DNA of 64,000 nt, taken from Tsukamurella sp. 1534. GTDB taxonomy: Bacteria > Actinomycetota > Actinomycetes > Mycobacteriales > Mycobacteriaceae. Positions within the stretch are counted from its first letter, which is position 1. Every line of letters starts with the position of its first letter. Under the pieces are notes generated by a model, which saw only the letters and a program-made list of their open reading frames with translations, made no database searches and was not told the origin of the DNA. The translations under genes were made by a program, and so were the position numbers. Below, piece after piece: positions 1 through 55,741 of this stretch. The DNA lies in assembly GCF_000312385.1 (NCBI RefSeq), contig NZ_HE997626.1:421206-485205 (forward strand), read 5' to 3'.

Positions 1-431
1 ACCTCGCGGGTGGCCGGGTCCAGGCTGAGATCCTCGAACCGCAGCACCTCGCTGTCGGCGCCGTTGTCCGGTGCCGTGCGACGCATCAGCGCGCGCATCC
101 GGGCCAGCAACTCCTCCAGCGCGAACGGCTTCGGGAGGTAGTCGTCGGCGCCCGCGTCCAGGCCGCTCACCCGGTCGCTCACCGCGTCGCGGGCGGTGAG
201 AACGAGGATCGGCAGATCGTCGCCGGCGCTGCGCAGCCTGCGGCACACCTCCAGCCCGTCGACGCGCGGCATGTTCAGGTCGAGCACCAGCGCATCCGGC
301 CGGTTCCCCGCCACGTGGTCGAGGGCGTCCTGGCCGTCGACGGCCGTGTCCACCTGGTATCCGTTGAACGTCAGCGAGCGCCGCAGGGACTCCCGCACCG
401 CCCGGTCATCGTCGACCACCAGAATTCGCAT
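1..431 (-). CDS. mprA: Response regulator MprA, N-terminal part (cut by window edge)
   Basis: This is the receiver domain and linker of an OmpR-family response regulator; the DNA-binding C-terminus lies beyond the window edge. The acidic pocket (D7, D8), phospho-acceptor D51 in the run [13 protein letters not shown]79 and K101 are all present, and the sequence from residue 1 to about 105 closely resembles mycobacterial MprA, including the run [22 protein letters not shown]. In mycobacteria MprA works with the sensor kinase MprB on envelope stress and activates sigE and sigB. The kinase gene would lie further left and is not visible. The ATG at 431 is the natural start for MRILVVDDD. The 537 nt upstream, where its promoter should be, contain a palindromic element and a 43-bp tandem array. 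Family assignment is confident; the specific MprA call rests on recalled similarity. Confidence 0.9.
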
Positions 432-659
432 AAGTATCAGTCTTACCGAAGACGCGTAGGAATTCCCTTAACGCCCCCTTTCCGCACGTCGCACCGTCGG
501 GCACCGTCGGGGCGGCGGGGGCGGACCGTCGATGCTGCCGCGGGCGGCGGACCGTCGGGGGCGGCGGGCGGCGGACCGTCGGGCTCGAGGCGGCGGGCGA
601 GGAGGGCCGGCGGGCGGGGCGGACCGTCGATGCTGCCGCGGGGGTGCCGTCTCCGCTGC
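432..659. repeat. GC-rich spacer with repeated GGACCGTCG words and a partial palindrome arm
   Basis: No gene is seen here. The stretch carries the word ACCGTCG at least six times (for example about 497, 519, 549, 573 and 621), mostly as GCGGACCGTCG. A truncated copy of the left arm of the neighbouring 130-bp element (TGCTGCCGCGGGGGTGCCGTCTCC) begins near 631. Open frames across it are low-complexity Arg/Pro/Gly/Ala and look like artefacts of base composition. The mprA promoter must lie in or beyond this stretch; I cannot point to a convincing -10 box. Confidence 0.6.
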
Positions 660-789
660 CGCGGGGGTGCCGTCTCCCAGCCGGGAGAAGGCAACCCCCA
701 CACGATTCGCCCTCCCCCATGAAACTGAGACCGCGACACCCAAAAACAACCGGGACACCTTCCCCCGGCTGGGAGACGGAAACCCCGCG
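660..789. repeat. 130-bp palindromic (MITE/REP-like) element, copy 1
   Basis: The 32-bp arms at 660-691 and 758-789 are inverted copies of each other with a few mismatches; the inner 22 bp (CCGTCTCCCAGCCGGGAGAAGG against CCTTCCCCCGGCTGGGAGACGG) differ at one position. The 66-bp centre is almost identical to that of the copies at 2078 and 5944 and contains an A-rich run (CACCCAAAAACAACCGGG) unlike the GC-rich surroundings. I see no coding capacity. It lies upstream of mprA. Confidence 0.85.
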
Positions 790-979
790 AAGCGACTCCA
801 CGACCCCCCGGCTGGGAGACGAAGCCCCGCGAAGCGACTCCACGATCACCTCGGCTGGGAGGCGGAACCCCGCGAAGCGACTCCACGATCACCTCGGCTG
901 CGAGACGGAGCCCCGCGAAGCGATTCCGCGATCAATCCGAAGACAGCCCCGGCGAAGCCGCTCCCCGATCATCCCGGGA
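766..979. repeat. 43-bp tandem repeat, about five copies
   Basis: Units begin with CGGCTG at 766, 809, 852 and 895, exactly 43 bp apart. A fifth, degenerate unit runs from about 938 to 979. The unit is CGGCTGGGAGACGGAACCCCGCGAAGCGACTCCACGATCACCT-like, with later copies more diverged. The first unit is the right arm of the 130-bp element, so the array looks like a tandem expansion of that arm. It reaches the stop codon of the gene ending at 969. Confidence 0.85.
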
Positions 980-1898
980 AGGGAGGGACGTGGGGGATGA
1001 CGCCCGCGCGGTCCATCGCGTTGGTCAGGATCTTGAAGAAGCGGAGGCGGTCGTTCAGGTCCTCCCAGCTCCAATGGCAGACCGTCATACCGATGGTTCC
1101 GAAATCGCTGTCGCGTCGCTTCTCGTACGCCCGACGGTCCGCGTCGGACCGGTACTTGTCGTCACCGTCGAACTCGCCCACGAGATTCCCCCAGAGGAAG
1201 TCCGCGTAGTAGGTGCGCCCATCGATGTGGAACGGGCGCTGGAGCAGCGGCATCGGCAGCTTCCACTGGATCATTCGCGCGCGGGACCACGACTCGCCCA
1301 CGGATTCGCTGTTGTCGACCGAATCCCGCAGCGCGCGGAGCACCACCCGGCGTCCGCGGCGGCGGCCGAGCGCCTCGACCACCGCCTCGAGTTCGGGGAG
1401 CGGCACCGGCGGTGGATCGGTCGGTTTCGGGAACCGTCGTCGCAGCCGGGCGCCGTCGATCACGGCCAGCGCCTGCTCGTACGTTCCCGCCATCGCCACG
1501 TCGATCGCGGTGCGCCCGCGCGCCGTCACCGTCATCCCGTCGACGACGCCCGTCTCGTTCGCGTGGAGCGGCCGCGGGTGCACGTGGCGGCGCCGGCTGA
1601 TGACACCTCCGCCGTGCGTGCCGTCGACCGTCGTGTGCACGCGCGCGTAGTCGGGGCGGAGCATCGGCAGCCCGTGCAGGGCCGCGGCGCTCTGATGACT
1701 GATCACCGCGCGATTGCCGTCGGCCAGCGCGGACGCACGCACCGTCGCGACGTACTCCGCCCACGGCGTCCCACGTGGTGCCCGCGTGTACACCCCCGGC
1801 CAGACGCGCCGGAACTCCCCCTTCCTGATCGCGTCGCGGATCCTGTCGTCGTCCCATTCCTGTGCGAGCAGCGTCGCCCGCGTGATCAATGTCGCCAC
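969..1898 (-). CDS. AbiEi-like winged-helix protein with DUF559/PD-(D/E)XK-like C-terminus (paralogue A)
   Basis: This 309-residue protein has an N-terminal helix-turn-helix-like segment (about 1-45) of the kind annotated as a type IV antitoxin AbiEi domain, a middle part with SHQSAAALHG, HGGG and HPRPL motifs, and a C-terminus with a DUF559/Vsr-like nuclease pattern: E202 in ESWSR, D233 in YYADF, and E242, D244 and K248 in GEFDGDDKY. Those spacings suggest a PD-(D/E)XK fold, but activity is untested. A paralogue (about 40% identical by eye) lies at 14545. No AbiEii nucleotidyltransferase partner is adjacent, so a classical AbiE toxin-antitoxin pair is unlikely. The GTG at 1898 is the only good start. 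Two 13-bp boxes lie 60 nt and 90 nt upstream, and palindromic elements lie on both sides. Confidence 0.75.
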   Translation of the reverse strand: MATLITRATLLAQEWDDDRIRDAIRKGEFRRVWPGVYTRAPRGTPWAEYVATVRASALADGNRAVISHQSAAALHGLPMLRPDYARVHTTVDGTHGGGVISRRRHVHPRPLHANETGVVDGMTVTARGRTAIDVAMAGTYEQALAVIDGARLRRRFPKPTDPPPVPLPELEAVVEALGRRRGRRVVLRALRDSVDNSESVGESWSRARMIQWKLPMPLLQRPFHIDGRTYYADFLWGNLVGEFDGDDKYRSDADRRAYEKRRDSDFGTIGMTVCHWSWEDLNDRLRFFKILTNAMDRAGVIPHVPPFPG

Positions 1899-1958
1899 AT
1901 CAGCCCCCCCGGCTATGACCGTGCATCACGACGGGGCGGCGGTCGAGAGCATGTCCGC

Positions 1959-2001
1959 CGGTCATCCACAGGTTTCTCGGCGGCCGCTCGGTCATCCACA
2001 G
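1959..2001 (-). promoter_or_regulatory. Paired CTGTGGATGACCG boxes upstream of paralogue A
   Basis: Read on the minus strand, CTGTGGATGACCG occurs at 1959-1971 and at 1989-2001, 30 bp apart, with the nearer copy ending 60 nt before the start codon at 1898. The same motif (CTGTGGATAACCG and CTGTGGATACCCG) lies 57 nt upstream of the paralogue at 14545. The core resembles a DnaA box (TGTGGATAA), but these pairs look like a family-specific promoter or operator element. Confidence 0.6.
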
Positions 2002-2077
2002 ATCCGCCGCCGCCTCTTGCGCGACGGCCCCGGACGTGCTTCGGTGCCGCCGCGGACCGTCGGGCGTGGCTCGCTGC

Positions 2078-2207
2078 CGCGGGGTTTCCGTCTCCCAGCC
2101 GGGAGAAGGCAGCCCCCACACGATTCGCCCTCCCCCATGAAACTGAGACCGCGACACCCAAAAACAACCGGGACACCTTCCCCCGGCTGGGAGACGGAAA
2201 CCCCGCG
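2078..2207. repeat. 130-bp palindromic (MITE/REP-like) element, copy 2
   Basis: The arms at 2078-2109 and 2176-2207 are 32-bp inverted repeats with a single mismatch, the best preserved of the three copies. The 66-bp centre matches copies 1 and 3 almost base for base. It lies between the 5' end of paralogue A and the 3' end of the TRIC-type gene. The RNA could fold into a long hairpin, so it might also act as a terminator. Confidence 0.88.
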
Positions 2208-2222
2208 ACAACGTCACACCGC

Positions 2223-2272
2223 GAGCCCAAGCCCGACGGTCCGCCCCGAGCCCAAGCCCGACGGTCCGCCCG
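2223..2272. repeat. 25-bp tandem repeat next to element copy 2
   Basis: Two copies of GAGCCCAAGCCCGACGGTCC-GCC follow one another with a 25-bp period (starts 2223 and 2248). The same two-copy unit follows element copy 3 at 6088-6137, so the repeated segment is larger than the palindrome alone (about 195 bp in both places). Confidence 0.8.
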
Positions 2273-2277
2273 ACGGG

Positions 2278-2928
2278 CTAGCGGCCGAGGCGGCGGCAGG
2301 CGCGGAGGAAGCGGCCGACGAGGTCCTCCGGCGCGATGGGCACGCGCCAGCCCTGCCACAGGGCGAGTAGCCGGAAGCCCGAGGCCAGCACCGACCCGAC
2401 CACGAGCGAGCGCGCGTCGGTGGCTCCCCAGGTGGAGGCGAGCACGGTCGCGAAGGCGCCGGTGAGGGCGGGGATGGCGTAGAGGTCGCGTTCCTGGATG
2501 AGCAGCGGCACCTCGTTGACCAGGATGTCGCGGAGCACGCCGCCGCCGAGCGCGGTGGTGATGCCGATGAGCGCCGCGGCGAACGGCGACGCGTCGTTGT
2601 GCAGCGCGGTGAGTGCGCCGGTCGCGGCGAACAGGCCCATGCCGAGGGCGTCGAGCACCAGCACCGAGCGTTTGAGCCGGCCGAACTGCGGGTGGAAGAC
2701 GAACACGACGGCCGCGGCGATCGACGCGACGGCGATGTTCTCCCAGCCCTGGAACGACGCGGGCGGGTGGATGCCCAGCAGCACGTCGCGGGCCACGCCG
2801 CCGCCGACGCCGGTGAGCGCGGCCACGGTCCACACGCCGAACAGGTCGAGCCGCTTACGGACGCCGATGAGCGCGCCGGATGCGGCGAACACCGCGATAC
2901 CCGCGTAGTTCAGCACCTCGAGCAGCAC
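2278..2928 (-). CDS. TRIC-type cation channel family (UPF0126) membrane protein
   Basis: This 216-residue protein is almost entirely hydrophobic and has the internal duplication typical of the bacterial UPF0126/TRIC family: two homologous three-helix halves, each with a glycine-rich GGGV-A/L-RD motif (TGVGGGVARDVLLG near residue 40 and LGGGVLRDILVNE near residue 125). Related bacterial proteins form trimeric monovalent-cation channels in the plasma membrane. The N-terminus (LNYAGIAVFAASGALIG) fits the usual family start. The gene stands alone, with element copy 2 just beyond its 3' end and the rpmF terminator upstream. The family call is firm; the ion carried is not known. Confidence 0.88.
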   Translation of the reverse strand: MLLEVLNYAGIAVFAASGALIGVRKRLDLFGVWTVAALTGVGGGVARDVLLGIHPPASFQGWENIAVASIAAAVVFVFHPQFGRLKRSVLVLDALGMGLFAATGALTALHNDASPFAAALIGITTALGGGVLRDILVNEVPLLIQERDLYAIPALTGAFATVLASTWGATDARSLVVGSVLASGFRLLALWQGWRVPIAPEDLVGRFLRACRRLGR

Positions 2929-2989
2929 GCCGCACCTCGTGACCGTTCAGCGGATCCAGGGCCACAGGATCCGAGTGATCCAGATATAC

Positions 2990-3028
2990 GCGAAAGCGGG
3001 CCGACCTCGAAGGTCGACCCGCTTTCGC
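2990..3028. terminator. Hairpin terminator downstream of rpmF
   Basis: An 18-bp stem with one mismatch (GCGAAAGCGGGCCGACCT at 2990-3007 and AGGTCGACCCGCTTTCGC at 3011-3028) closes a 3-nt loop, 14 nt past the rpmF stop codon on the minus strand. There is no strong T-tract, which is usual in high-GC actinobacteria. Confidence 0.75.
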
Positions 3029-3041
3029 GGTGAAGATTCTT

Positions 3042-3215
3042 TTAGCGGCGGTCCAGATCGACCAGGCCCAGCTTGGCGGCGCGCACGAGGCGACGCGGCA
3101 CGAGGTGGGTCTGACCGCCGACCTGCACGGCCTGCAGCTCCGGGTTGTTCGCCTTCCACTGCGAGCGACGAGCATGCGTGTTCGCCCGCGACATACGACG
3201 CTTCGGTACAGCCAT
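3042..3215 (-). CDS. rpmF: 50S ribosomal protein L32
   Basis: The 57-residue basic protein starts [20 protein letters not shown], the universal L32 N-terminus, and ends in a short basic tail. L32 is a component of the large subunit near the peptidyl-transferase region. No CxxC zinc ribbon is present, as in mycobacterial L32 of this type, which suits its position beside the zinc-independent ribosomal genes. It is transcribed in the same direction as rpmE, 77 nt downstream of it, and is followed by a strong hairpin. The start is fixed by the conserved MAVPK. Confidence 0.93.
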
Positions 3216-3292
3216 GATTCTTCCTTCGGTCTTGACGTAAAAGCTTCTCCGACGCGAGCTCAGAGAGCTTCCAACGTCACAAGCATTGCAGT

Positions 3293-3556
3293 CTACCGGC
3301 TCGACGCGCGCCCGCCAAAACGCGCGTACTTCTCCTGGAACTTCTGCACCCGGCCGGCGGTGTCCACGAGCCGCTGCTTGCCCGTCCACAGGGGGTGAGA
3401 ATCGCTGGTCACGTCCACGACGATCAGCGGGTACGTCGCGCCATCGTGTTCGACGGTGCGCTCCGACGTCGCGGTGCTGCGGGTGATGATCAGCTTCCCG
3501 GTGGACGCGTCCTTGAACGCCACGGGCCGGTACTCGGGGTGGATTCCGTGCTTCAT
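3293..3556 (-). CDS. rpmE: 50S ribosomal protein L31 type B (zinc-independent)
   Basis: The 87-residue protein begins [19 protein letters not shown] and contains the type-B signature [24 protein letters not shown]. It has no cysteines, so it lacks the zinc-binding motif of type-A L31. In bacteria with both forms, the type-B paralogue replaces the zinc form when zinc is scarce and is under Zur control. Its ATG overlaps the stop codon of the upstream Mrf-like gene by 4 nt (ATGA), so the two are translationally coupled. The divergent partners L28, L33, S14 and S18 complete the set. Confidence 0.93.
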
Positions 3557-4788
3557 CTGTTCTCCTTCTGTTCGGTCCCGGCGCCTGCGTCCGAGGGGTC
3601 TGCGGTGTCGGGGTTGAGGTCCTCGCACGGGTCGGCGTGCATCTCGCCGAAGGGGTCGGGCCAGCCGGCCCAGGCCGACGGTCCGCCGGCGAACTCGCGC
3701 TCGTCGAGCTCCGCCCAGCGGAGGGTCTCGAGCACCCGGTCGGGGTCGGCGCCGGCGACGAGCGCGACGAGCGAGGTGGCGCGGTCGCCGTGCTCCTCGT
3801 CCCACGCGGCGTTCGCCATGGCCCACCGCTCGGGCGTGCCCTCGCCGCCTGCGGCGAGCCACCGCCCGGCGGGCCCGACGCGCAGCCCGGAGCCCGCGGA
3901 CTCGAGCCACAGGGCCTCGTCGGGCCTGGTGGCGAGCCAGATCCGGCCCCGGGCGTGGACGACACCGTCGAGCAGCACGTCGATCGCCTCGTGGAACCGG
4001 CCGGGGTGCATGGGCCGGCGGCCGCTGTACTCGACGAGCCGGACGTCCCCGTCGGGCTCGAGGGGCGGGCAGCCGGCGAGCAGCGGGCCGAACGGCTCCA
4101 GGGCCGGCCGGCGGCCGGGGAGCCGCTGCAGGAGGTTCGCCAGCGGGACGCGCTCGCGGGCGATGGGTGCGCCGGGCGCGAGACGGCGGAGCACGGCCCG
4201 CAGACGGGTGGGGTCGGGGCTGTCGCCGCCGACGACGAGCAGGTCGGCGCAGGCGGCGTGCCCGACGGCGAGCTGCGCAACGGTGCGCTCGTCGTCGTCC
4301 GGGACGGCGAAGCGCTCGTGCAGGTCCTCCTCGCCGAGGGCGTCGTCGAGCCAGGTGTGCCCGTCGACGAAGCCGATCACGCCGACGACCTCCACGTCGC
4401 GGGCGGCGGGGCCGGGGACCTCCCCGACCATCTCGACCACGACGTGCTCGATGGCGTGGCACAGGGCCTCGGCCTCGAGGGTGGGGTCGAGCCGGACGAC
4501 GATGCGGCGCACGCCGGCCCGGCGGCGCAGGGCGCGGAGCAGCGGCAACAGGTCTTCGCGGAGGGTGCAGGAGACGCAGCCGTGGGCGAGTTCGAGGAGG
4601 GCGACGCGCTCCTCGGCGGTGCCGTCGGGGCGGACCGTCGCCTCGGTGCGCACGACCATGCCCTCCCGGAGGCCGGACAGGTCGTGGTGGATGACGACGG
4701 TGCCGGGTTCGGCGAGTTCGAGCGCGCGCTCCTGCCCGCCGAACCCGGTCAGGAGCAGGACCGGAGTTCTGTTGGAAATGATTCCCAT
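3553..4788 (-). CDS. mrf: Mrf-like CobW-family protein with a degenerate P-loop
   Basis: This 411-residue protein aligns with the CobW/G3E family throughout (N-terminal PVLLLTGF, a Cys motif [16 protein letters not shown] near residue 70, a C-terminal CobW domain with [14 protein letters not shown]). The Walker A segment expected after LLLTGF reads [10 protein letters not shown] and lacks GKT, so normal GTPase activity is doubtful. The context is that of mycobacterial Mrf (Rv0106/MSMEG_6069), a zinc-starvation factor acting with zinc-free ribosomes during hibernation. It is divergent from rpmB-rpmG-rpsN-rpsR and coupled to L31B. The only usable start (4788) overlaps a Zur-like palindrome. A zinc metallochaperone is the alternative reading. 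Confidence 0.8.
4773..4787. promoter_or_regulatory. Candidate Zur box overlapping the mrf start codon
   Basis: TGGAAATGATTCCCA is a near-perfect 15-bp palindrome (one mismatched pair besides the centre) and resembles the actinobacterial Zur core TGAAAATGATTTTCA. It covers the first codons of the Mrf-like gene, 47 nt before the rpmB start, so one bound repressor could silence both divergent operons. Assignment rests on motif likeness and gene context. Confidence 0.6.
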
Positions 4789-4834
4789 TTCTAGTACGTT
4801 ACCTTATCGACAACTGTTCGCAAGAAGGAGAATC

Positions 4835-5071
4835 ATGTCCGCACACTGCCAGGTGACGGGCCGCGCGCCCGGCTTCGGCAAGCGGGTCTCGCACAGCCAC
4901 GTGCGCACGAACCGCCGCTGGGACCCGAACATCCAGCGCCGCCGCTACTACGTGCCCAGCCTGGGACGCACCGTCACGCTGCGGGTGTCCACCAAGGGCA
5001 TCAAGACCATCGACCGACGCGGCATCGACGCGGTGGTCGCCGAGATCCTGCGCCGAGGGGAGAAGATCTGA
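4835..5071 (+). CDS. rpmB: 50S ribosomal protein L28, zinc-independent paralogue
   Basis: The 78-residue protein starts [22 protein letters not shown] and continues [28 protein letters not shown], typical of L28. It has a single cysteine (C5) and lacks the CxxC pairs of the zinc-binding form. A strong ribosome-binding site (AAGGAG, about 4822-4827) precedes the ATG. It opens a four-gene operon and overlaps rpmG by 1 nt (TGATG). Confidence 0.93.
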
Positions 5072-5235
5072 TGGCCCGCAACGAGATCCGTCCGATCATC
5101 AAACTCAAGTCCACCGCCGGCACCGGGTACACGTACGTGACCCGCAAGAACCGTCGTAACGATCCGGACCGCATGGTGCTGCGCAAGTACGACCCCGTTG
5201 TCCGCAAGCACGTCGACTTCCGGGAGGAGCGCTGA
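5071..5235 (+). CDS. rpmG: 50S ribosomal protein L33, zinc-independent paralogue
   Basis: The 54-residue protein [20 protein letters not shown]... is a complete L33 with the [23 protein letters not shown] core and no cysteines, so it is the zinc-free version. It overlaps the upstream L28 stop and the downstream S14 start by 1 nt each (TGATG), indicating tight translational coupling within the operon. Confidence 0.93.
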
Positions 5236-5540
5236 TGGCCACGAAGGCGAAGATCGCCGCCAACGAGCGGCGCAAGAAGATCGTGGCCCGGCAGGCCGAG
5301 CGCCGCGCCGAGCTCAAGCGGGTCATCGCGCACCCGTCGACCCCGCCCGACGATCGGGCGGCCGCCGTCGCCGCGCTGGCGAAGCTGCCGCGCGACGGCT
5401 CGGCCACGCGCGTGCGCAACCGCGACGCCGCCGACGGCCGTCCGCGCGGGCACCTGCGCAAGTTCGGGCTCTCGCGCGTCCGGGTGCGGCAGATGGCCCA
5501 CGACGGTCAGCTGCCCGGCGTCCGCAAGTCGAGTTGGTAG
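5235..5540 (+). CDS. rpsN: 30S ribosomal protein S14, zinc-independent long form
   Basis: The 101-residue protein is the long, cysteine-free S14 ([20 protein letters not shown] at the start; [20 protein letters not shown] near the C-terminus). The short zinc form, about 61 residues with two CxxC motifs, is normally in the main ribosomal operon. It is the third gene of the operon and overlaps rpmG by 1 nt. Confidence 0.93.
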
Positions 5541-5549
5541 GAGGATCCC

Positions 5550-5816
5550 ATGGCTCAGAAGCCCGCCCGCAAGCCCCTGCGCACCCCGGCCGTCAAACGC
5601 GGTCACGTCCGGGTGCCCGACGGTGCCCTCGACTACAAGGACGTGCAGTTCCTGCGCACCTTCATCAACGAGCGCGGCAAACTGCGCGGCCGCGGCGTGA
5701 CGCGGCTGTCGCCGCAGGACCAGAAGAAGCTGGCGCTCGCGGTGAAGAACGCCCGGGAGATGGCGCTGCTGCCCTACGCCTCGTCGAGCGCCGCGGCCCG
5801 CGCCTCCCGTTCCTGA
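5550..5816 (+). CDS. rpsR: 30S ribosomal protein S18, zinc-independent paralogue
   Basis: The 88-residue protein has the S18 core (IDYKD-like [22 protein letters not shown], then [28 protein letters not shown]) and no cysteine. A Shine-Dalgarno AGGAGG lies about 6 nt before the ATG at 5550. It closes the operon; a GCGGCGCCGC repeat pair follows the stop codon. Confidence 0.93.
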
Positions 5817-5827
5817 CCGCCGGGGAT

Positions 5828-5860
5828 GCGGCGCCGCCTCGTGAGGGTGTGCGGCGCCGC
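5828..5860 (+). terminator. Candidate terminator after rpsR
   Basis: The palindrome GCGGCGCCGC occurs at 5828-5837 and again at 5851-5860 with a 13-nt spacer, so the transcript can form a 10-bp stem starting 12 nt after the rpsR stop. There is no T-run. Confidence 0.45.
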
Positions 5861-5880
5861 ACCCCGTCGCCCCCACCACC

Positions 5881-5934
5881 GTCGCCCGCGCACCGTCGAT
5901 CCACCCCGTCGCCCGCGCACCGTCGATCCACCCC
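5881..5934. repeat. Two perfect 27-bp tandem copies left of element copy 3
   Basis: GTCGCCCGCGCACCGTCGAT-CCACCCC occurs twice in a row (5881-5907 and 5908-5934). Each unit carries the ACCGTCG word seen around the other elements. The unit differs from the flanks of copies 1 and 2. Confidence 0.85.
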
Positions 5935-5943
5935 GTTCGCTCC

Positions 5944-6073
5944 CGCGGGGGTGCCGTCTCCCAGCCGGGAGAAGGCAGCCCCCACACGATTCGCCCTCCC
6001 CCATGAAACTGAGACCGCGACACCCAAAAACAACCGGGACACCTTCCCCCGGCTGGGAGACGGAACCCCCGCG
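5944..6073. repeat. 130-bp palindromic (MITE/REP-like) element, copy 3
   Basis: The 32-bp inverted arms at 5944-5975 and 6042-6073 differ at two positions. The 66-bp centre is nearly identical to copies 1 and 2. It lies between rpsR and the AEC transporter gene. The two-copy 25-bp tandem unit seen after copy 2 follows at 6088-6137. Confidence 0.88.
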
Positions 6074-6087
6074 ACAGCGTCACCCCC

Positions 6088-6137
6088 GAGCCCAAGCCCG
6101 ACGGTCCGCCGCGAGCCCAAGCCCGACGGTCCGCCCG
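6088..6137. repeat. 25-bp tandem repeat next to element copy 3
   Basis: Two units GAGCCCAAGCCCGACGGTCC-GCC (starts 6088 and 6113) repeat the arrangement at 2223-2272, showing that this flank duplicated together with the palindrome. Confidence 0.8.
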
Positions 6138-6171
6138 GGCAGCGGGCGACGGGGCGACTACTTCGAACGCG

Positions 6172-6177
6172 TAATCT
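6172..6177 (+). promoter_or_regulatory. Candidate -10 box for a leaderless AEC transporter transcript
   Basis: TAATCT lies 8 nt before the GTG start at 6186. This matches the actinobacterial TANNNT -10 consensus at the distance expected when transcription begins at or next to the start codon. Confidence 0.45.
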
Positions 6178-6185
6178 CTTCTGGC

Positions 6186-7124
6186 GTGACTTCCGTGCTG
6201 GCCGGGTTCGCCGTGATCGCGATCATCATCGCGGCCGGCTGGCTCGTCGGACGACTGGGGGTGCTGGGCGAGCAGCCGGAGAAGCAGCTGTCGCTGTTGG
6301 TGTTCTACCTGCTCACGCCCGCCCTGCTGCTGCACGCGCTGGCCACGACGGATGTCGCGGTCCTGTTCAGCGAGCGGCTCGCGGTGAGCGCGGGATCGGC
6401 GCTGGCGATCGCGGCGGTCTACTACGTGATCGTCCGGGTGCTGTGGAAGCGGTCGATGAGCGACGCGACGATCGGCGCCCTCGCGTCGAGCTACGTGAAC
6501 TCGTCGAACCTGGGCATCCCCATCGCGGTGTTCGTGCTGCACGACACCTCGTACGTGGCGCCGCTGCTGCTGTTCCAGATCCTCATCTTCTCGACGATCG
6601 CGCTGACCATGCTCGACATCGCGGAGAGCCGCGGGGCCACGGGGCCGCGGCCGCCGCTGTGGCGCACCGTCGCCACTCCCCTGCTCAACCCGATCGTAGT
6701 CGGCGCCCTGGTCGGCCTGGTGATCTCGCTGGTCGGCTGGCACCCGCCGGATTGGCTGATGAGCCCGGTGAAACTGCTCGGCGACGCGTCGGTGCCGATG
6801 GCCCTGCTCGTGTTCGGGCTGTCGCTCGGCGGGGTGCGGGTGATGCAGAAGGGCGAGGCGCCGCGGCGCGACATCGCGCTGGCCGCCGCGCTCAAGATGA
6901 TCGCAATGCCGGTGGTGGCGTGGGCCATGTCGCGCTTCGGTTTCGGCCAGACGGGCCACGCGCTGTTCGCGCAGACCGTGACCGCCGCCCTCCCGACGGC
7001 GCAGAACGTGCTGGTCTACGCGCTGCGATACAACCGCGGCGTGCTCCTGGCCAGGGACGCCGGGCTTATCACGACGGGCCTGTCGATACCCGCGATCATG
7101 CTGATCGCGGTCCTGCTCACCTGA
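6186..7124 (+). CDS. AEC-family (auxin efflux carrier-like) permease
   Basis: The 312-residue protein has about ten hydrophobic segments arranged in two halves of five. It carries the AEC-family pattern of an N-terminal helix followed by LVFYLLTPALLLHAL, a conserved SSYVNSSNLGIPIA (about residues 100-113), and the second-half FGLSLGG and QTVTAALPTAQNVLVYA. AEC transporters move small organic anions such as malate or other metabolites across the plasma membrane; the substrate here cannot be read from sequence. I prefer the GTG at 6186 because the open frame further upstream runs through element copy 3 and its tandem repeats, and because the sequence turns hydrophobic immediately after it. No neighbour suggests a pathway. 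Confidence 0.82.
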   Translation: MTSVLAGFAVIAIIIAAGWLVGRLGVLGEQPEKQLSLLVFYLLTPALLLHALATTDVAVLFSERLAVSAGSALAIAAVYYVIVRVLWKRSMSDATIGALASSYVNSSNLGIPIAVFVLHDTSYVAPLLLFQILIFSTIALTMLDIAESRGATGPRPPLWRTVATPLLNPIVVGALVGLVISLVGWHPPDWLMSPVKLLGDASVPMALLVFGLSLGGVRVMQKGEAPRRDIALAAALKMIAMPVVAWAMSRFGFGQTGHALFAQTVTAALPTAQNVLVYALRYNRGVLLARDAGLITTGLSIPAIMLIAVLLT

Positions 7125-7126
7125 AG

Positions 7127-7152
7127 AATGTGACGGACGACCCGGTCACATT
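7127..7152. promoter_or_regulatory. Inverted repeat AATGTGAC-N10-GTCACATT
   Basis: A perfect 8-bp inverted repeat (7127-7134 and 7145-7152) begins 2 nt after the AEC transporter stop codon and 110 nt before the next start. It could be a terminator stem or a repressor site. The spacing does not fit a Crp site (TGTGA-N6-TCACA). Confidence 0.4.
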
Positions 7153-7261
7153 ACGCCTGTGACGCCCGTTTCGGCTTGGGTCGGCCAAGCTACTCATGGG
7201 TTAATAAGGCCACGAGCGGCGCTCTGCACGGTTCGCCGCGTTGACACTCCAGGAGAGACTC

Positions 7262-8287
7262 ATGGCTCAGACCGCCGCACAGCAGGCCGTCGGCGTGCTC
7301 GTCTCTGCCGTCGAGGCCCGTGGGGGCAAGGCAGAGGTCGAGACGAAGGGCAGCACCACCCTCGTCACCGTGACCGCCAACGGCAAGACCACCGTCCTGC
7401 GCGTCAAGGCCACGACGGGTGATTCGTGGCAGGCCCGCAAGTCCGAGGGCACCGCGAAGGCCCCCGTCACGGCGTGGGCGCTCGTCGACCTGTCCGACGG
7501 TGCGCCGATCGCGCTGGTCTCGGCCGAGGATTACGCCGCGCACGTGACCAAGCTCGCCGCCGCCTGGGAGGGCAAGAACCCCGGCAAGACCCTCACCGCG
7601 AACACGAACCTCACCGTCACGGCCGACGCCGTGGCCGAGTGGGAGGACGCGTGGGCGCTGCTCGGGCTCGACGGTGCCGGCACGTCCGGCCCGGCGGCGA
7701 AGGCCGCGGAGAAGCCGGCCGCCAAGCCCGCGGAGAAGAAACCCGCGGCGGCCGCGAAGGCGCCCGCCAAGAAGTCTCCGGCGAAGAAGGCCCCCGCCAA
7801 GTCGGCCGCCACCAAGGCGCCGGCGAAGAAGGCCCCCGCCAAGACCGCCGCGAAGTCCGAGGCGAAGCCGGCGGCGAAGAGCACGACCGCGAAGCCGGCC
7901 ACGAAGGCCGCGCCCGCGAAGAAGGCCGCCGCCAAGAAGCCCGTGAAGGCGTCGGAGGCCAAGATCACCCCGATCGCCGCCCAGCGCGACGCCGCGGACC
8001 AGGGCAAGGCCCCCGCGACCATCGGCAACGGTTCGGCGAAGCCGGCCAAGGACGCCCCGAAGGCGAAGCCCGGCTCCGGCGCGAAGGCCGACACCAAGGC
8101 CAAGGACGCCAAGGCCCCGGCCAAGGATGCGAAGGCCGCGTCCTCGCAGGCGGCCGCCAAGGCCAAGGACGCCAAGGACGCCGCGAAGTCCGCGGGGACC
8201 AACGGCCAGTCGAAGAAGAGCAAGAGCGAGCCCACGGGACTCGCCGCGGTCCTCAAGCGCGTCCCGGTGGTCGGCCGCCTCATCTGA
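7262..8287 (+). CDS. Histone-H1-like Lys/Ala/Pro-rich protein with unknown N-terminal domain
   Basis: This 341-residue protein is in two parts. Residues 1 to about 135 are a folded-looking, mixed-composition domain with no family I recognise (it contains VEARGGKAEVETKG, a run of V/T strands, and WALVDLSDGAPIALV). From about 138 to 325 the chain is almost only A, K, P and S/T in PAKKAPAK-like repeats, as in histone H1 or the tails of mycobacterial HupB; the last 20 residues (LAAVLKRVPVVGRLI) turn hydrophobic and amphipathic. The tail predicts nucleic-acid or polyanion binding; the end could touch membrane. It is not HupB, because the HU fold is absent. The ATG at 7262 follows AGGAGA at good spacing. 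The gene is flanked by an inverted repeat and an unrelated DUF1707 gene. Confidence 0.7.
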   Translation: MAQTAAQQAVGVLVSAVEARGGKAEVETKGSTTLVTVTANGKTTVLRVKATTGDSWQARKSEGTAKAPVTAWALVDLSDGAPIALVSAEDYAAHVTKLAAAWEGKNPGKTLTANTNLTVTADAVAEWEDAWALLGLDGAGTSGPAAKAAEKPAAKPAEKKPAAAAKAPAKKSPAKKAPAKSAATKAPAKKAPAKTAAKSEAKPAAKSTTAKPATKAAPAKKAAAKKPVKASEAKITPIAAQRDAADQGKAPATIGNGSAKPAKDAPKAKPGSGAKADTKAKDAKAPAKDAKAASSQAAAKAKDAKDAAKSAGTNGQSKKSKSEPTGLAAVLKRVPVVGRLI

Positions 8288-14316: not shown

Positions 14317-14342
14317 TCTCCCCTCCGCCACGTTCCCTCCCC
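14317..14342. repeat. Half copy of the 65-bp palindromic element
   Basis: TCTCCCCTCCGCCACGTTCC-CTCCCC repeats the left arm of the full element that begins 49 bp later at 14366. There is no matching right arm, so this is a solo arm or a decayed copy. It begins 10 nt after the ArsR stop codon. Confidence 0.75.
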
Positions 14343-14365: not shown

Positions 14366-14430
14366 TCTCCCCTCCGCCACGTTCCCTCCCCTCGGCGTAG
14401 AACGTGGGAGTGAACGTGGCGGAGGGGAGA
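14366..14430. repeat. 65-bp palindromic element, left of paralogue B
   Basis: The arms TCTCCCCTCCGCCACGTTC-C (from 14366) and G-GAACGTGGCGGAGGGGAGA-like (ending 14430) pair over about 26 bp with one or two mismatches around a short GGCGTAGAAC-type loop. A second copy of identical length lies at 15496-15560, on the other side of the nuclease-like gene. It may double as a terminator for the ArsR gene. Confidence 0.8.
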
Positions 14431-14544: not shown

Positions 14545-15477
14545 ATGGGGGACGTCGTGCGGCGCGGGTACCTGCTGGCCACCGGAATGAGCAGCGCAGC
14601 CATCTCGCGCGCCGTCGATTCCGGGCGACTGGAACGCCTGGCGCGCGGCGCGTACGCCGTTCCCGCACCTCCGGGACACGAGGAGCCGCCGTGGGAGCGC
14701 TATCGCACGACGGTGCTGGCCACGGCACCGGCCTTCAACGCGGTGGTCAGCCATGAGAGCGCGGCCGTCCTGCACGGCATACCGTTCCTGCGGCCCGCCC
14801 GCTCGCTCGTGCACTTCACCGTCGACCGGCGGCACGGAGGAGGCGTCCGACGGGGCGCGCACATCCATCCGCGTCCGCTGGGCCGGCACGAGATCGTGCT
14901 GGTCGACGGTGCCCGTGCGACCTCCCGCGTCCGCACCGCGATCGACGTGGCGACGACGGGGGACCTCGAGCGCGCGGTCTGCGCGATCGATGCGGTACGG
15001 CTCCGCCGGCGCTACCCGTCGCCGGACGATCCGGCGCCCGTGACCGTGGCCGAGTTGGAGGAGTGTCTCTCCGGCCTGGGCCGGCGACGGGGTGTCGCCG
15101 TCGCGCGCCGGGCGATCGAGCTGTCCGTCGACTGCAGCGCATCGGCGGGCGAATCCTGGTCGCGGATGCAGATGCTGTCGGCGGGGATACCCCTGCCACG
15201 GCTGCAGCGGGAACACGTTCTCGAGGGCCGTCAGTACTTCGCCGACTTCGACTGGGGCCCGCTGATCGGCGAGTTCGACGGCCTGGACAAGTACGGCACC
15301 ACGTCGCGGGCGGTCACCGGCGCCCTCGCCGAGGAGAAGGCCCGCGAGGAGACGTTCGCCGCGGCCGGGATCGAGGTGGTGCGCTGGGGCTGGCGGACGC
15401 TCCGCGCCCCGGGGCGGCTGCCGCTGCTCCTCACCACGGCCCTGGCGCGCAACGGCCTGATCGAGGTCTCGAGATGA
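14545..15477 (+). CDS. AbiEi-like winged-helix protein with DUF559/PD-(D/E)XK-like C-terminus (paralogue B)
   Basis: This 310-residue paralogue of the protein at 969 shares the same plan: an N-terminal helix-turn-helix with SSAAISRAVDSGRLERLARGAYAV, motifs SHESAAVLHG, HGGG, HPRPL and RTAIDVA, then the nuclease-like set E203 (ESWSR), D234 (YFADF), E243, D245 and K249 (GEFDGLDKY). By analogy with DUF559/Vsr-type folds these would be metal-binding and catalytic positions. No toxin partner lies beside it. It sits between two 65-bp palindromes (14366 and 15496), and the duplicated box lies 57 nt upstream. The ATG at 14545 precedes VRRGYLLATGMSSAAI, as expected for the family. Its function is unproven; genome maintenance, defence or a repeat-linked role are all open. 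Confidence 0.75.
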   Translation: MGDVVRRGYLLATGMSSAAISRAVDSGRLERLARGAYAVPAPPGHEEPPWERYRTTVLATAPAFNAVVSHESAAVLHGIPFLRPARSLVHFTVDRRHGGGVRRGAHIHPRPLGRHEIVLVDGARATSRVRTAIDVATTGDLERAVCAIDAVRLRRRYPSPDDPAPVTVAELEECLSGLGRRRGVAVARRAIELSVDCSASAGESWSRMQMLSAGIPLPRLQREHVLEGRQYFADFDWGPLIGEFDGLDKYGTTSRAVTGALAEEKAREETFAAAGIEVVRWGWRTLRAPGRLPLLLTTALARNGLIEVSR

Positions 15478-15495: not shown

Positions 15496-15560
15496 TCTCC
15501 CCTCCGCCACGTTCACTCCCCGCGGCGTGGAACAGGGGACCGAACGCAGCGGAGGGGAGA
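15496..15560. repeat. 65-bp palindromic element, right of paralogue B
   Basis: The arms TCTCCCCTCCGCCACGTTCA-CTCCCC and GGGGACCGAACGCAGCGGAG-GGGAGA are imperfect inverted repeats around CGCGGCGTGGAACA. The element begins 19 nt after the stop codon of paralogue B and ends 15 nt before that of the convergent aldolase gene, so it may also act as a two-way terminator. Confidence 0.8.
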
Positions 15561-27430: not shown

Positions 27431-27503
27431 TCCGTGGCGGAGGGCACGCGCCGCGTCGTGGCCCGGGTGGGTACTTTCCGGCGCCGGCATCGACGGCGGC
27501 CCG

Positions 27504-27672
27504 TTCCCGCGACATCGAGTCCTTCCCGCGATCGTGAGCTGTTCCCGCGCAGCCGCGAGCGGTCTCCCGCGACAGCGAGTTGTTCCCGCGATCGCCATGG
27601 CGATCGCGGGAACGGCGGTGTGTAGCGGGAAGCGGCGGACACGTCGCGGGAAGTGCACCGTGCCGCGGGAGC
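27504..27672. repeat. Array of TTCCCGCGA direct and inverted repeats with a 32-bp perfect palindrome
   Basis: TTCCCGCG or TCTCCCGCG begins at 27504, 27523, 27542, 27563 and 27583, about 20 bp apart. The word then appears inverted (GCGGGAA or GCGGGAG) at about 27606, 27625, 27645 and 27664. At the turning point lies a perfect 32-bp palindrome, GTTCCCGCGATCGCCA-TGGCGATCGCGGGAAC (27582-27613), with nested GCGATCGC sites. The array fills the spacer between convergent genes; no credible gene lies in it. Confidence 0.8.
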
Positions 27673-55450: not shown

Positions 55451-55636
55451 CTCGCACCACCTTTCGTCCCTGCTAACGCTAGGAACTTCGGTGGCCGGGC
55501 ACATCCGGGCCGGGCACCCATCTGCGATCCCATCACCTCAGGGCTGGCCCCCTAGTCCTCCCGGGGGATGCCCCGCGGAGCGGGCCGCGCACCGTCGGAC
55601 CGCGGACCGTCGACCCGGGCGTTCCCTAGGGGGACG

Positions 55637-55690
55637 GCCTCTCCCCACAGCGAGCGCGTTCTCCCCTTGACCGGGGGCATGGGGAGAGGC
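55637..55690. repeat. Inverted repeat in the SDR/small-protein spacer
   Basis: GCCTCTCCCC (55637-55646) and GGGGAGAGGC (55681-55690) are perfect inverted copies with a 34-nt spacer. Next to them is the palindrome CCCTATAGGG (55695-55704). The rest of this 291-nt spacer carries two ACCGTCG words (about 55592 and 55608) and no gene I can support. Confidence 0.5.
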
Positions 55691-55741
55691 GCGGCCCTAT
55701 AGGGAGACGCCCGGCGGGTGGGTGGCGAGGCGCGGGCGCGA

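Follow-up and report, generated by a model that had tools for sequence, protein, structure and literature searches.

The window, that is, the whole 64-kb stretch of Tsukamurella sp. 1534 DNA analysed here, contains three copies of a palindromic element (element a), two of which lie on either side of a gene (gene a) whose predicted product joins an AbiEi-like N-terminal half to a probable nuclease-like C-terminal half. A second gene of the same kind (gene b) lies between palindromes of its own, and two further, solitary palindromes resemble the flanks of two more such genes (c and d) located elsewhere in the genome. The features are as follows.

660-789, + strand: palindromic element a, copy 1 (102-bp core 674-775 plus outer arms)
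764-934, + strand: tandem repeats at 42-43 nt, composed of the right arm of copy 1 and flank (starts 764, 806, 849, 892)
969-1898, - strand: gene a, AbiEi-like N-terminal half and probable PD-(D/E)XK nuclease-like C-terminal half, between copies 1 and 2
2078-2207, + strand: palindromic element a, copy 2 (core 2092-2193)
5944-6073, + strand: palindromic element a, copy 3 (core 5958-6059), solo, distant from gene a
14317-14342, + strand: partial element b, left arm only
14367-14429, + strand: palindromic element b upstream of gene b, 63 bp, TCCC spacing 19, DNA fold z -9.1
14545-15477, + strand: gene b, second AbiEi/nuclease-like gene, product 48% identical to that of gene a
15497-15559, + strand: palindromic element b downstream of gene b, DNA fold z -4.4
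27493-27635, + strand: solo element d, 78-79% identical over 145-147 bp to both flanks of gene d
55622-55706, - strand: solo element c (E 0.0088, DNA fold z -4.2), 70-76% identical to both flanks of gene c
Outside the window, G000:C2:749205-749891: gene d, bracketed by element d
Outside the window, G000:C1:129273-130185: gene c (interrupted), bracketed by element c

The palindromic elements of the window

The positions and equal 130-bp length of the three copies of element a, as given in the original prediction, are exact, and all three copies are indeed intergenic. The 32-bp inverted arms ascribed to them are found in copy 2 with the single mismatch claimed, and in copy 1 with a computed complementarity of 91% over the 32 bp. 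Copies 2 and 3 are each 98% identical to copy 1 along the full 130 bp and have identical 102-bp cores, and the resemblance extends slightly past the 130-bp ends (a 150-nt family at 91-100%). The earlier view that no further copy occurs in the remaining 58 kb holds for the element a subfamily but not for its sister palindromes, which lie at 14367-14429, 15497-15559, 27493-27635 and 55622-55706.

The core of element a is a 102-bp quasi-palindrome with a 19-bp period. Folding of copies 1-3 with RNA parameters, on either strand, gives z values of -7.3 to -10.8 (reached by none of 200 shuffles in any of the six folds), and folding of the copy 1 core with DNA parameters gives a z of -3.9. In an Rfam covariance-model search of positions 1-7500, at E values up to 1, the elements had no match, on which ground an Rfam RNA identity was rejected; the same search returned a mir-3150 match at 2991-3027 with a score far below the gathering threshold.

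The element family in the genome and genus

It had been considered that the three copies might be the only ones. In fact, this genome holds nine copies of element a, and relatives are present in five of 15 other Tsukamurella genomes. Most of the element sites first collected (31 of 39) are exactly 102 bp long; a form in T. sputi measures 83 bp (19 bp shorter) and a sister form 63 bp (39 bp shorter). The letters that stay invariant in divergent copies are mostly CCC and GGG triplets spaced at 19 bp, such that the conserved centre noticed originally characterises the recent copies of this genome and not the wider family, where the triplets are invariant instead. All 39 sites are intergenic by our own gene calls. 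Where the neighbouring genes are codirectional, 24 of 28 sites lie closer to the 3' end of the upstream gene, and gaps between divergent genes hold two of the 39, which is not significant against background gaps (p 0.07). This repeat family, its structure and its distribution are matters of direct observation, and the reading of the elements as REP/BIME-like is upheld by copies that are dispersed, intergenic, hairpin-forming, near-identical within one genome and linked to a gene that these repeats bracket.

Evidence for the long hairpin comes from covariation, which had been proposed as a means of comparing the copies. The alignment comprises 29 of the 39 sites, namely those of 102 bp after removal of a duplicate and of a site that was out of register. 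Cells with changes on both sides of the long stem number 58, where shuffles average 39.0, and the covariation score is 0.148 against 0.105, neither being reached in any of 500 shuffles; the count of stem pairs with both-side changes (14) is unremarkable, being reached by 46 of 500 shuffles. An alternative fold of three hairpins was rejected on its lower covariation score (0.110; long hairpin, 0.148). The proposal that the elements are transcription terminators or structured RNAs, whose long hairpins would end or stabilise transcripts, draws on this covariation together with the strong folds on both strands and the sites near 3' ends. We regard it as very improbable, since a length of 102 bp at 31 of 39 sites, with invariant triplets every 19 bp, exceeds what a terminator needs, the elements are near-symmetric between strands and have no Rfam match, and the bracketing of one gene family described below is left unexplained.

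The copies at the gene a locus of another genome, G004, are 61-64% identical to copies 1-3 (shuffled sequence, ~51%). Given that copies 1-3 are themselves near-identical, this points to copying or homogenisation within the genome. At orthologous sites (seven pairs), one clear case has 92% identity in the element and 75% in the flanks, the remaining pairs having 58-73% and 53-60%, respectively; with one clear case in seven, conservation of the elements above their flanks is not claimed. Inspection of the element sites by eye revealed no recognisable target-site duplication.

The candidate partner protein

The product of gene a matches AbiEi in PADLOC (8.9e-13) and has no match in a Pfam search, and that of gene b matches PF13338 (1.3e-08). 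In the C-terminal half, six residues (E202, D233, E242, D244, K248 and R262) are invariant among 42 aligned proteins, and the order of the acidic and lysine residues fits a PD-(D/E)XK active site, from which this half is probably nuclease-like. Pfam matches to DUF559 and REase_MTES_1575 are weak (best E 0.03-0.06), each family being matched by two of the 42 members at E <=0.1, and a second Pfam scan matched one of ten proteins, below the curated cut-off. Comparison of the protein with solved structures gave no match, and a search of viral contigs and phages found no relatives. Of the two genes next to gene a, one encodes a response regulator and the other matches PF03458; neither is an AbiEii (DUF1814) toxin gene. 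The original prediction had suggested looking for a matching transposase with the same arms, and this led to a gene that carries them on either side, though its product is of the AbiEi/PD-(D/E)XK type and no known transposase.

AbiEi-like genes occur in all 16 Tsukamurella genomes, meaning that their presence alone is uninformative, and simple co-occurrence of gene and element was rejected as evidence for this reason. At the level of the subfamily, a-type elements are found in all three genomes with gene a and in three of the 13 without it, a weak association (Fisher p 0.036). The relatives of gene a at the same locus in G004 (61% identical) and G010 (58%) also have elements on both sides. Of the six genomes that contain a-type elements, G014, G012 and G009 have no gene a at its locus, which implies that the elements persist or spread without the gene, or arrived otherwise. 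G014 has the most a-type elements of all.

Bracketing of the gene family by matching repeats

The association extends well beyond gene a. Within the genus, 58 merged loci of AbiEi/nuclease-like genes were obtained, with fragmented genes positioned by their best piece, and 54 were scored, the exclusions being G007:C568 (contig end), G007:C613, G001:C34 and G012:C1:2521725 (weak). At a score of 20, a threshold chosen after the scores were seen, upstream and downstream repeats match at 44 of the 54 genes and at none of 127 control genes; at a score of 16 the figures are 46 of 54 and 3 of 127. The Mann-Whitney p for genes against controls is 1.2e-19. By syntenic locus, 11 of 15 have matching flanks, with four loci, and ten of the 54 genes, being without them at score 20. 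Palindromy alone (both flanks >=12) separates the groups less sharply, at 23 of 54 genes against 8 of 127 controls.

At E 1e-15, 103 of 148 class-level genomes contain a match to the family profile; flanks were examined at the best-scoring loci only. Matching flanks are present at 39 of 51 distinct best-scoring loci in other genera: 18 of 27 in the order set (the best-scoring 30 minus three from this genome) and, in the class set, 24 of 27 (the best-scoring 30 minus one that belongs to this genome and two whose flanks were short), three loci being common to both sets and neither set being a random draw. At L212 and L214 the outcome depended on the gene boundary, and the result for the revised boundary was used. 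Outer-flank controls were bracketed at 0 of 26 (order) and 0 of 24 (class) loci. The segments common to the two flanks fold beyond shuffles (z below -2) at 34 of 44 genus, 13 of 18 order and 11 of 21 class loci, compared with 2 of 54 controls. The bracketing, its generality and the syntenic positions that the genes keep within Tsukamurella are likewise direct observations.

The repeats themselves are particular to each locus. Between non-syntenic loci, none of 919 pairs has a repeat in common at score 28, and within two syntenic groups the repeat of one member (G000a; G014a) differs from the others. The idea that genes and repeats co-evolve in a graded manner across loci was considered and set aside: with a Spearman coefficient of 0.14 over the 919 non-syntenic pairs and no common repeats, it is not demonstrated. 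Each of the four AbiEi/nuclease-like loci of this genome has at least one known element copy away from the gene.

These observations bear on the notion that the elements are plain MITE-like repeats, moved by an unrelated and perhaps lost transposase, with the AbiEi/nuclease-like genes lying between them incidentally. The peak of a-type elements in G014, with no gene a at its locus, would fit such an origin. We nevertheless think it quite unlikely, in that bracketing is specific to the gene family and recurs with unrelated repeats in other genera, no repeats are common to non-syntenic loci, and b-type elements are found only in G000, which is the sole genome in the gene b synteny group.

A second possibility is that the repeats are operators, through which the AbiEi-type domain represses its own gene, the flanks being regulatory and the scattered copies forming a regulon or titrating the protein. 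The N-terminal half is AbiEi-like, and autoregulation through binding to inverted repeats in the promoter is described for the AbiEi protein of Streptococcus agalactiae and for M. tuberculosis Rv2827c (PMC7319586). Against this, at the 44 loci a matching copy also lies downstream of the gene, a median of 27.5 bp past the stop codon, and the upstream copy lies a median of 113 bp ahead of the start; moreover, solo copies occur mainly near 3' ends, with few between divergent genes (the non-significant difference given above), and near-identical copies have multiplied within this genome. Such a role is accordingly unlikely.

It is also conceivable, if rather doubtful, that the gene and its two repeats form a transposon-like unit, with the hairpins as terminal inverted repeats and the solo elements as non-autonomous remnants, an account which overlaps with the explanation preferred below. 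In its favour, a GAYCAYGT tag upstream is paired with an inverted tag downstream, near the outer ends of the repeats, at 12 of 26 class-level loci (L253 being doubtful). The Tsukamurella genes, however, keep their syntenic loci, direct repeats are commoner than inverted ones (29 direct, 12 inverted and 3 undecided at the 44 loci), and neither a target-site duplication nor a relative among viral contigs or phages was recognised.

A proposed system of palindromes and partner proteins

On balance we favour, with somewhat more confidence than doubt, a system like that of REPINs and RAYTs in which an AbiEi/nuclease-like protein takes the place of the Y1 transposase; its recognition, cutting and copying of the repeats are what we infer. 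The palindromes would be REPIN-like miniature repeats, quasi-palindromes of ~102 bp with the potential to form long hairpins, that are copied within the genome and retained between genes, mostly close to 3' ends. Each family would have a partner gene, itself mostly immobile, with palindromes of that family on either side. The protein may recognise its cognate palindrome at the DNA level, probably in the form of a hairpin that is extruded or single-stranded, and cut there, whereupon repair or re-insertion would copy the palindrome.

More tentatively, and with confidence a little short of even, the arrangement may be a class-wide actinobacterial one, in which every one of many unrelated palindrome families has a dedicated AbiEi/PD-(D/E)XK protein that makes, spreads and maintains it. 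With equal reserve, this class-wide reading would have the REPIN/RAYT arrangement invented independently, on the basis of a non-HUH nuclease and hence with another copying chemistry. A literature search found no description of such an association between palindromes and AbiEi/nuclease-like genes. To our knowledge, the RAYT transposase is the single known partner of REPs. If the proposal is correct, a second, unrelated family of REP partners would be a candidate maker of the palindromic repeats of actinobacteria, and a role would be given to genes currently annotated as AbiEi antitoxins or hypothetical proteins. Defence-system counts may also be affected, because PADLOC scores both window proteins as AbiEi. 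Pairs of protein and repeat are open to testing, four of them in this genome alone.

Comparison with known systems

The CGTC-tagged REPs are, like the present elements, palindromic repeats outside the RAYT-linked superfamily, and are reportedly without a dedicated transposase (Di Nocera 2013, PMC3733652); they differ in being mainly alphaproteobacterial according to the same source, and the tag here, at some loci, is GAYCAYGT. The partner resembles the DUF559, REase_MTES_1575 and Vsr-like groups of PD-(D/E)XK proteins in its six invariant C-terminal residues and in weak Pfam matches, which are under the cut-off where shown, and an association of these families with cognate palindromes was not found in the literature search. 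As to the AbiE type IV toxin-antitoxin system, the products of genes a and b have an AbiEi-type N-terminal half, and known AbiEi proteins bind inverted repeats (PMC7319586); they differ in the nuclease-like C-terminal half, in the lack of AbiEii among the two neighbours of gene a, and in having repeats that lie on both sides of the gene and are dispersed.

The closest parallel is with REPINs and RAYTs. Actual membership, that is, a REPIN with a RAYT partner, was rejected, since the PF01797 (Y1 transposase) profile matches in none of the 16 Tsukamurella genomes, compared with five of 14 control genomes. In place of a Y1 tyrosine transposase the partner is an AbiEi/PD-(D/E)XK-like protein, the Tsukamurella elements have a 19-bp period, and copies found number 2-14 per genome, against 430 doublets reported for one Pseudomonas genome. 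The likeness to the REPIN/RAYT system, as described by Bertels and Rainey 2011 (PMC3116915) and Di Nocera 2013 (PMC3733652), lies in extragenic, inverted doublets that form a hairpin and have compensatory changes, in a cognate repeat within the flanks of the partner gene, in repeats often situated downstream of genes, and in a partner phylogeny that largely tracks the species.

Anatomy of the a-type palindrome

The three 130-bp palindromes of the original prediction lie at the coordinates proposed for them and are 98% alike. Whichever strand is folded, these a-type copies give long hairpins well outside the range of shuffled sequences. The features of the window that concern us are:

660-789, a-type copy 1
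969-1898 (-), gene a, with an AbiEi-like N-terminal half and a probable nuclease-like C-terminal half
2078-2207, a-type copy 2
5944-6073, a-type copy 3
14545-15477 (+), gene b, a second such gene

The window spans C1 421206-485205 of the 4.5 Mb genome of Tsukamurella sp. 1534 (G000), in which there are nine a-type copies altogether.

Positions of a-type copies in G000, by contig
C1: 308616, 371293, 421879, 423297, 427163, 1426746
C2: 13043, 837220
C3: 368848

A 102-bp core aligns without gaps across these nine copies and one from a second Tsukamurella genome (G004); among 39 sites from five genomes, the element is exactly 102 bp long in 31 and 83-101 bp in the remainder. Moving inward from the paired outer 25 bp, there is an internal loop of 9 by 9, then an inner stem of 10 bp, and the centre spans 14 nt. 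Over 29 aligned sites the long stem is preserved through both-side changes in 58 cells (39.0 in shuffles) and has a covariation score of 0.148 (0.105 for shuffles), values that none of 500 shuffles reached; the number of stem pairs with both-side changes, 14, was equalled in 46 of 500. A three-hairpin alternative structure was set aside, its covariation score of 0.110 lying below that of the long hairpin. Among the invariant letters are the CCC triplets of columns 3-5, 22-24 and 41-43 and the GGG triplets of columns 79-81 and 98-100, which recur with a period of 19 bp; the 83-bp form found in T. sputi (G010) falls 19 bp below 102, and a 63-bp form at gene b 39 bp below.

Between 764 and 934 in the window, copy 1's right arm and its flank stand in tandem, with a repeat unit of 42-43 nt, a duplication that looks as if it had been provoked by the copy 1 hairpin. 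Short tandem repeats, judged by eye, also adjoin the copies at C1 308616 and C2 837220. Short GC-rich intergenic repeats around CGGACCGTCG (window 516-640, 2049-2275 and 6084-6137) adjoin the elements and, again by eye, occur next to some elements in G004 and G014.

Distribution of the elements

Among the 16 Tsukamurella genomes, with the best 150 candidates scored per genome, a covariance model finds a-type elements in five (E 0.001) and a broader model in six (E 0.01), the latter also giving two further matches in G000, one of sister type b and one of sister type c.

a-type elements per genome (broader model, E 0.01)
G014: 14
G004: 10
G000: 9
G012: 5
G010: 2
G009: 2 (one weak)

In an order-wide draw of 200 genomes, under stricter filters by which weak matches are lost, G000 alone gave a match. 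A strict pattern matched 10 stretches in a collection of 84,980 species, every one of them Tsukamurella, and nothing in IMG/VR.

All 39 sites are intergenic by our own codon-usage gene calls: 28 lie in codirectional gaps, 9 in convergent and 2 in divergent ones, against 75, 13 and 14 background gaps of at least 130 bp (Fisher p 0.07 for the shortage in divergent gaps). Within codirectional gaps, 24 of the 28 sites (p 0.00018) are closer to the upstream gene, on its 3' side.

The gene a locus

Gene a has copy 1 on one side and copy 2 on the other. Its relatives in G004 (61%) and G010 (58%) sit at the corresponding locus, with a response regulator gene to one side and a PF03458 gene to the other, and they too lie between elements. 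Eight other genomes have matches to these two neighbours 96-207 bp apart, with gene a absent; in three genomes the interval is taken up by other sequence, and two gave no PF03458 gene at E 1e-50. In G014 a-type elements are abundant, yet there is no gene a at its locus.

Just past the PF03458 gene, a 37-nt hairpin on both strands (window 2991-3027) is perhaps a terminator; a microRNA model match there was discarded, its score being far below threshold. Small ribosomal protein genes clustered with a CobW-like gene follow at 3042-5816, a putative zinc-responsive alternative ribosomal protein set.

Bracketing as a property of the gene family

Gene b in turn lies between copies of another palindrome built on the same plan, and the likeness of the flanks was therefore scored over AbiEi/nuclease-like loci, comparing 350 bp upstream with 350 bp downstream. 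Of 58 loci in the genus 54 were scored, and 44 of these reached a score of at least 20, against none of 127 other genes. The 54 genes represent 15 syntenic loci and are thus not independent cases; at 11 of these loci the median score is at least 20. In other genera the best-scoring loci pass in 18 of 27 cases for the order set (outer-flank controls 0/26) and in 24 of 27 for the class set (0/24); the sets share three loci, such that 39 of 51 distinct loci pass.

Of 83 shared segments, 58 fold distinctly better than shuffles (genus 34/44, order 13/18, class 11/21); among control segments 2 of 54 do. In the genus the repeats lie at a median of 113 bp ahead of the start and 27.5 bp past the stop, and thus probably enclose the gene together with its promoter. 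Of 44 such repeat pairs in Tsukamurella, 29 are direct and 12 inverted, with the orientation of 3 undecided. By eye, many otherwise unrelated repeats of other genera (loci L193-L255) have a CTGCAG or TGCA centre in common.

Non-syntenic loci have no repeat in common (0/919 pairs at score 28). Inside syntenic groups the repeats are mostly alike, the exceptions being that of gene a in G000, unlike those of its G004 and G010 relatives, and that of one G014 gene (G014a), unlike the rest of its own group. For all four G000 loci, copies are also known elsewhere in the genome.

Copies away from each gene in G000
Gene a: seven
Gene b: two, C2 52586 and C1 2051663 (the latter weak)
Gene c (C1:129273-130185): at least two, window 55622-55706 and C1 near 1562440
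Gene d (C2:749205-749891): at least one, window 27493-27635

The b-type repeats were found in G000 alone, and gene b's synteny group likewise has no other genome. A later profile search gave six matches in G000, of which the five listed fall in loci a to d. Gene c (L145) is in two pieces with repeats still on both sides, and its synteny group has a member in six other genomes.

The protein and a possible mechanism

The N-terminal half matches AbiEi in PADLOC for gene a (8.9e-13) and PF13338 for gene b (1.3e-08); the gene a protein has no Pfam match, and PF13338 is matched in 18 of 42 aligned family members (E 0.1). Because E202, D233, E242, D244, K248 and R262 are invariant in the C-terminal half, which also has weak DUF559 and REase_MTES_1575 matches, we infer that this half is a putative PD-(D/E)XK nuclease. 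Three relatives come from a plasmid collection: two are annotated as hypothetical and the third as 'type IV toxin-antitoxin system AbiEi family antitoxin'.

By analogy with RAYT proteins and their REPINs, the AbiEi/nuclease-like protein would recognise its own palindrome, and cutting there would lead to copying of the palindrome. AbiEi proteins bind inverted repeats, according to PMC7319586, which fits such recognition. Against protein-driven copying stand the many G014 elements with no gene a at its locus, the low copy numbers and the absence of any target duplications seen. The palindromes might otherwise be operators, MITE-like repeats, terminators or parts of a transposon-like unit, readings that are compatible with one another and with a REPIN/RAYT-like system. 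Among the PubMed Central matches listed (titles and the start of abstracts), there is no description of a repeat associated with AbiEi-nuclease genes.

At 12 of 26 class-level loci (L253 being doubtful) the tag GAYCAYGT occurs upstream and, inverted, downstream, close to the outer ends of the repeats; a same-strand arrangement occurs at none of the 26, and the outer flanks have 15 matches in 33,180 bp. This inverted pair resembles the ends of a transposon.
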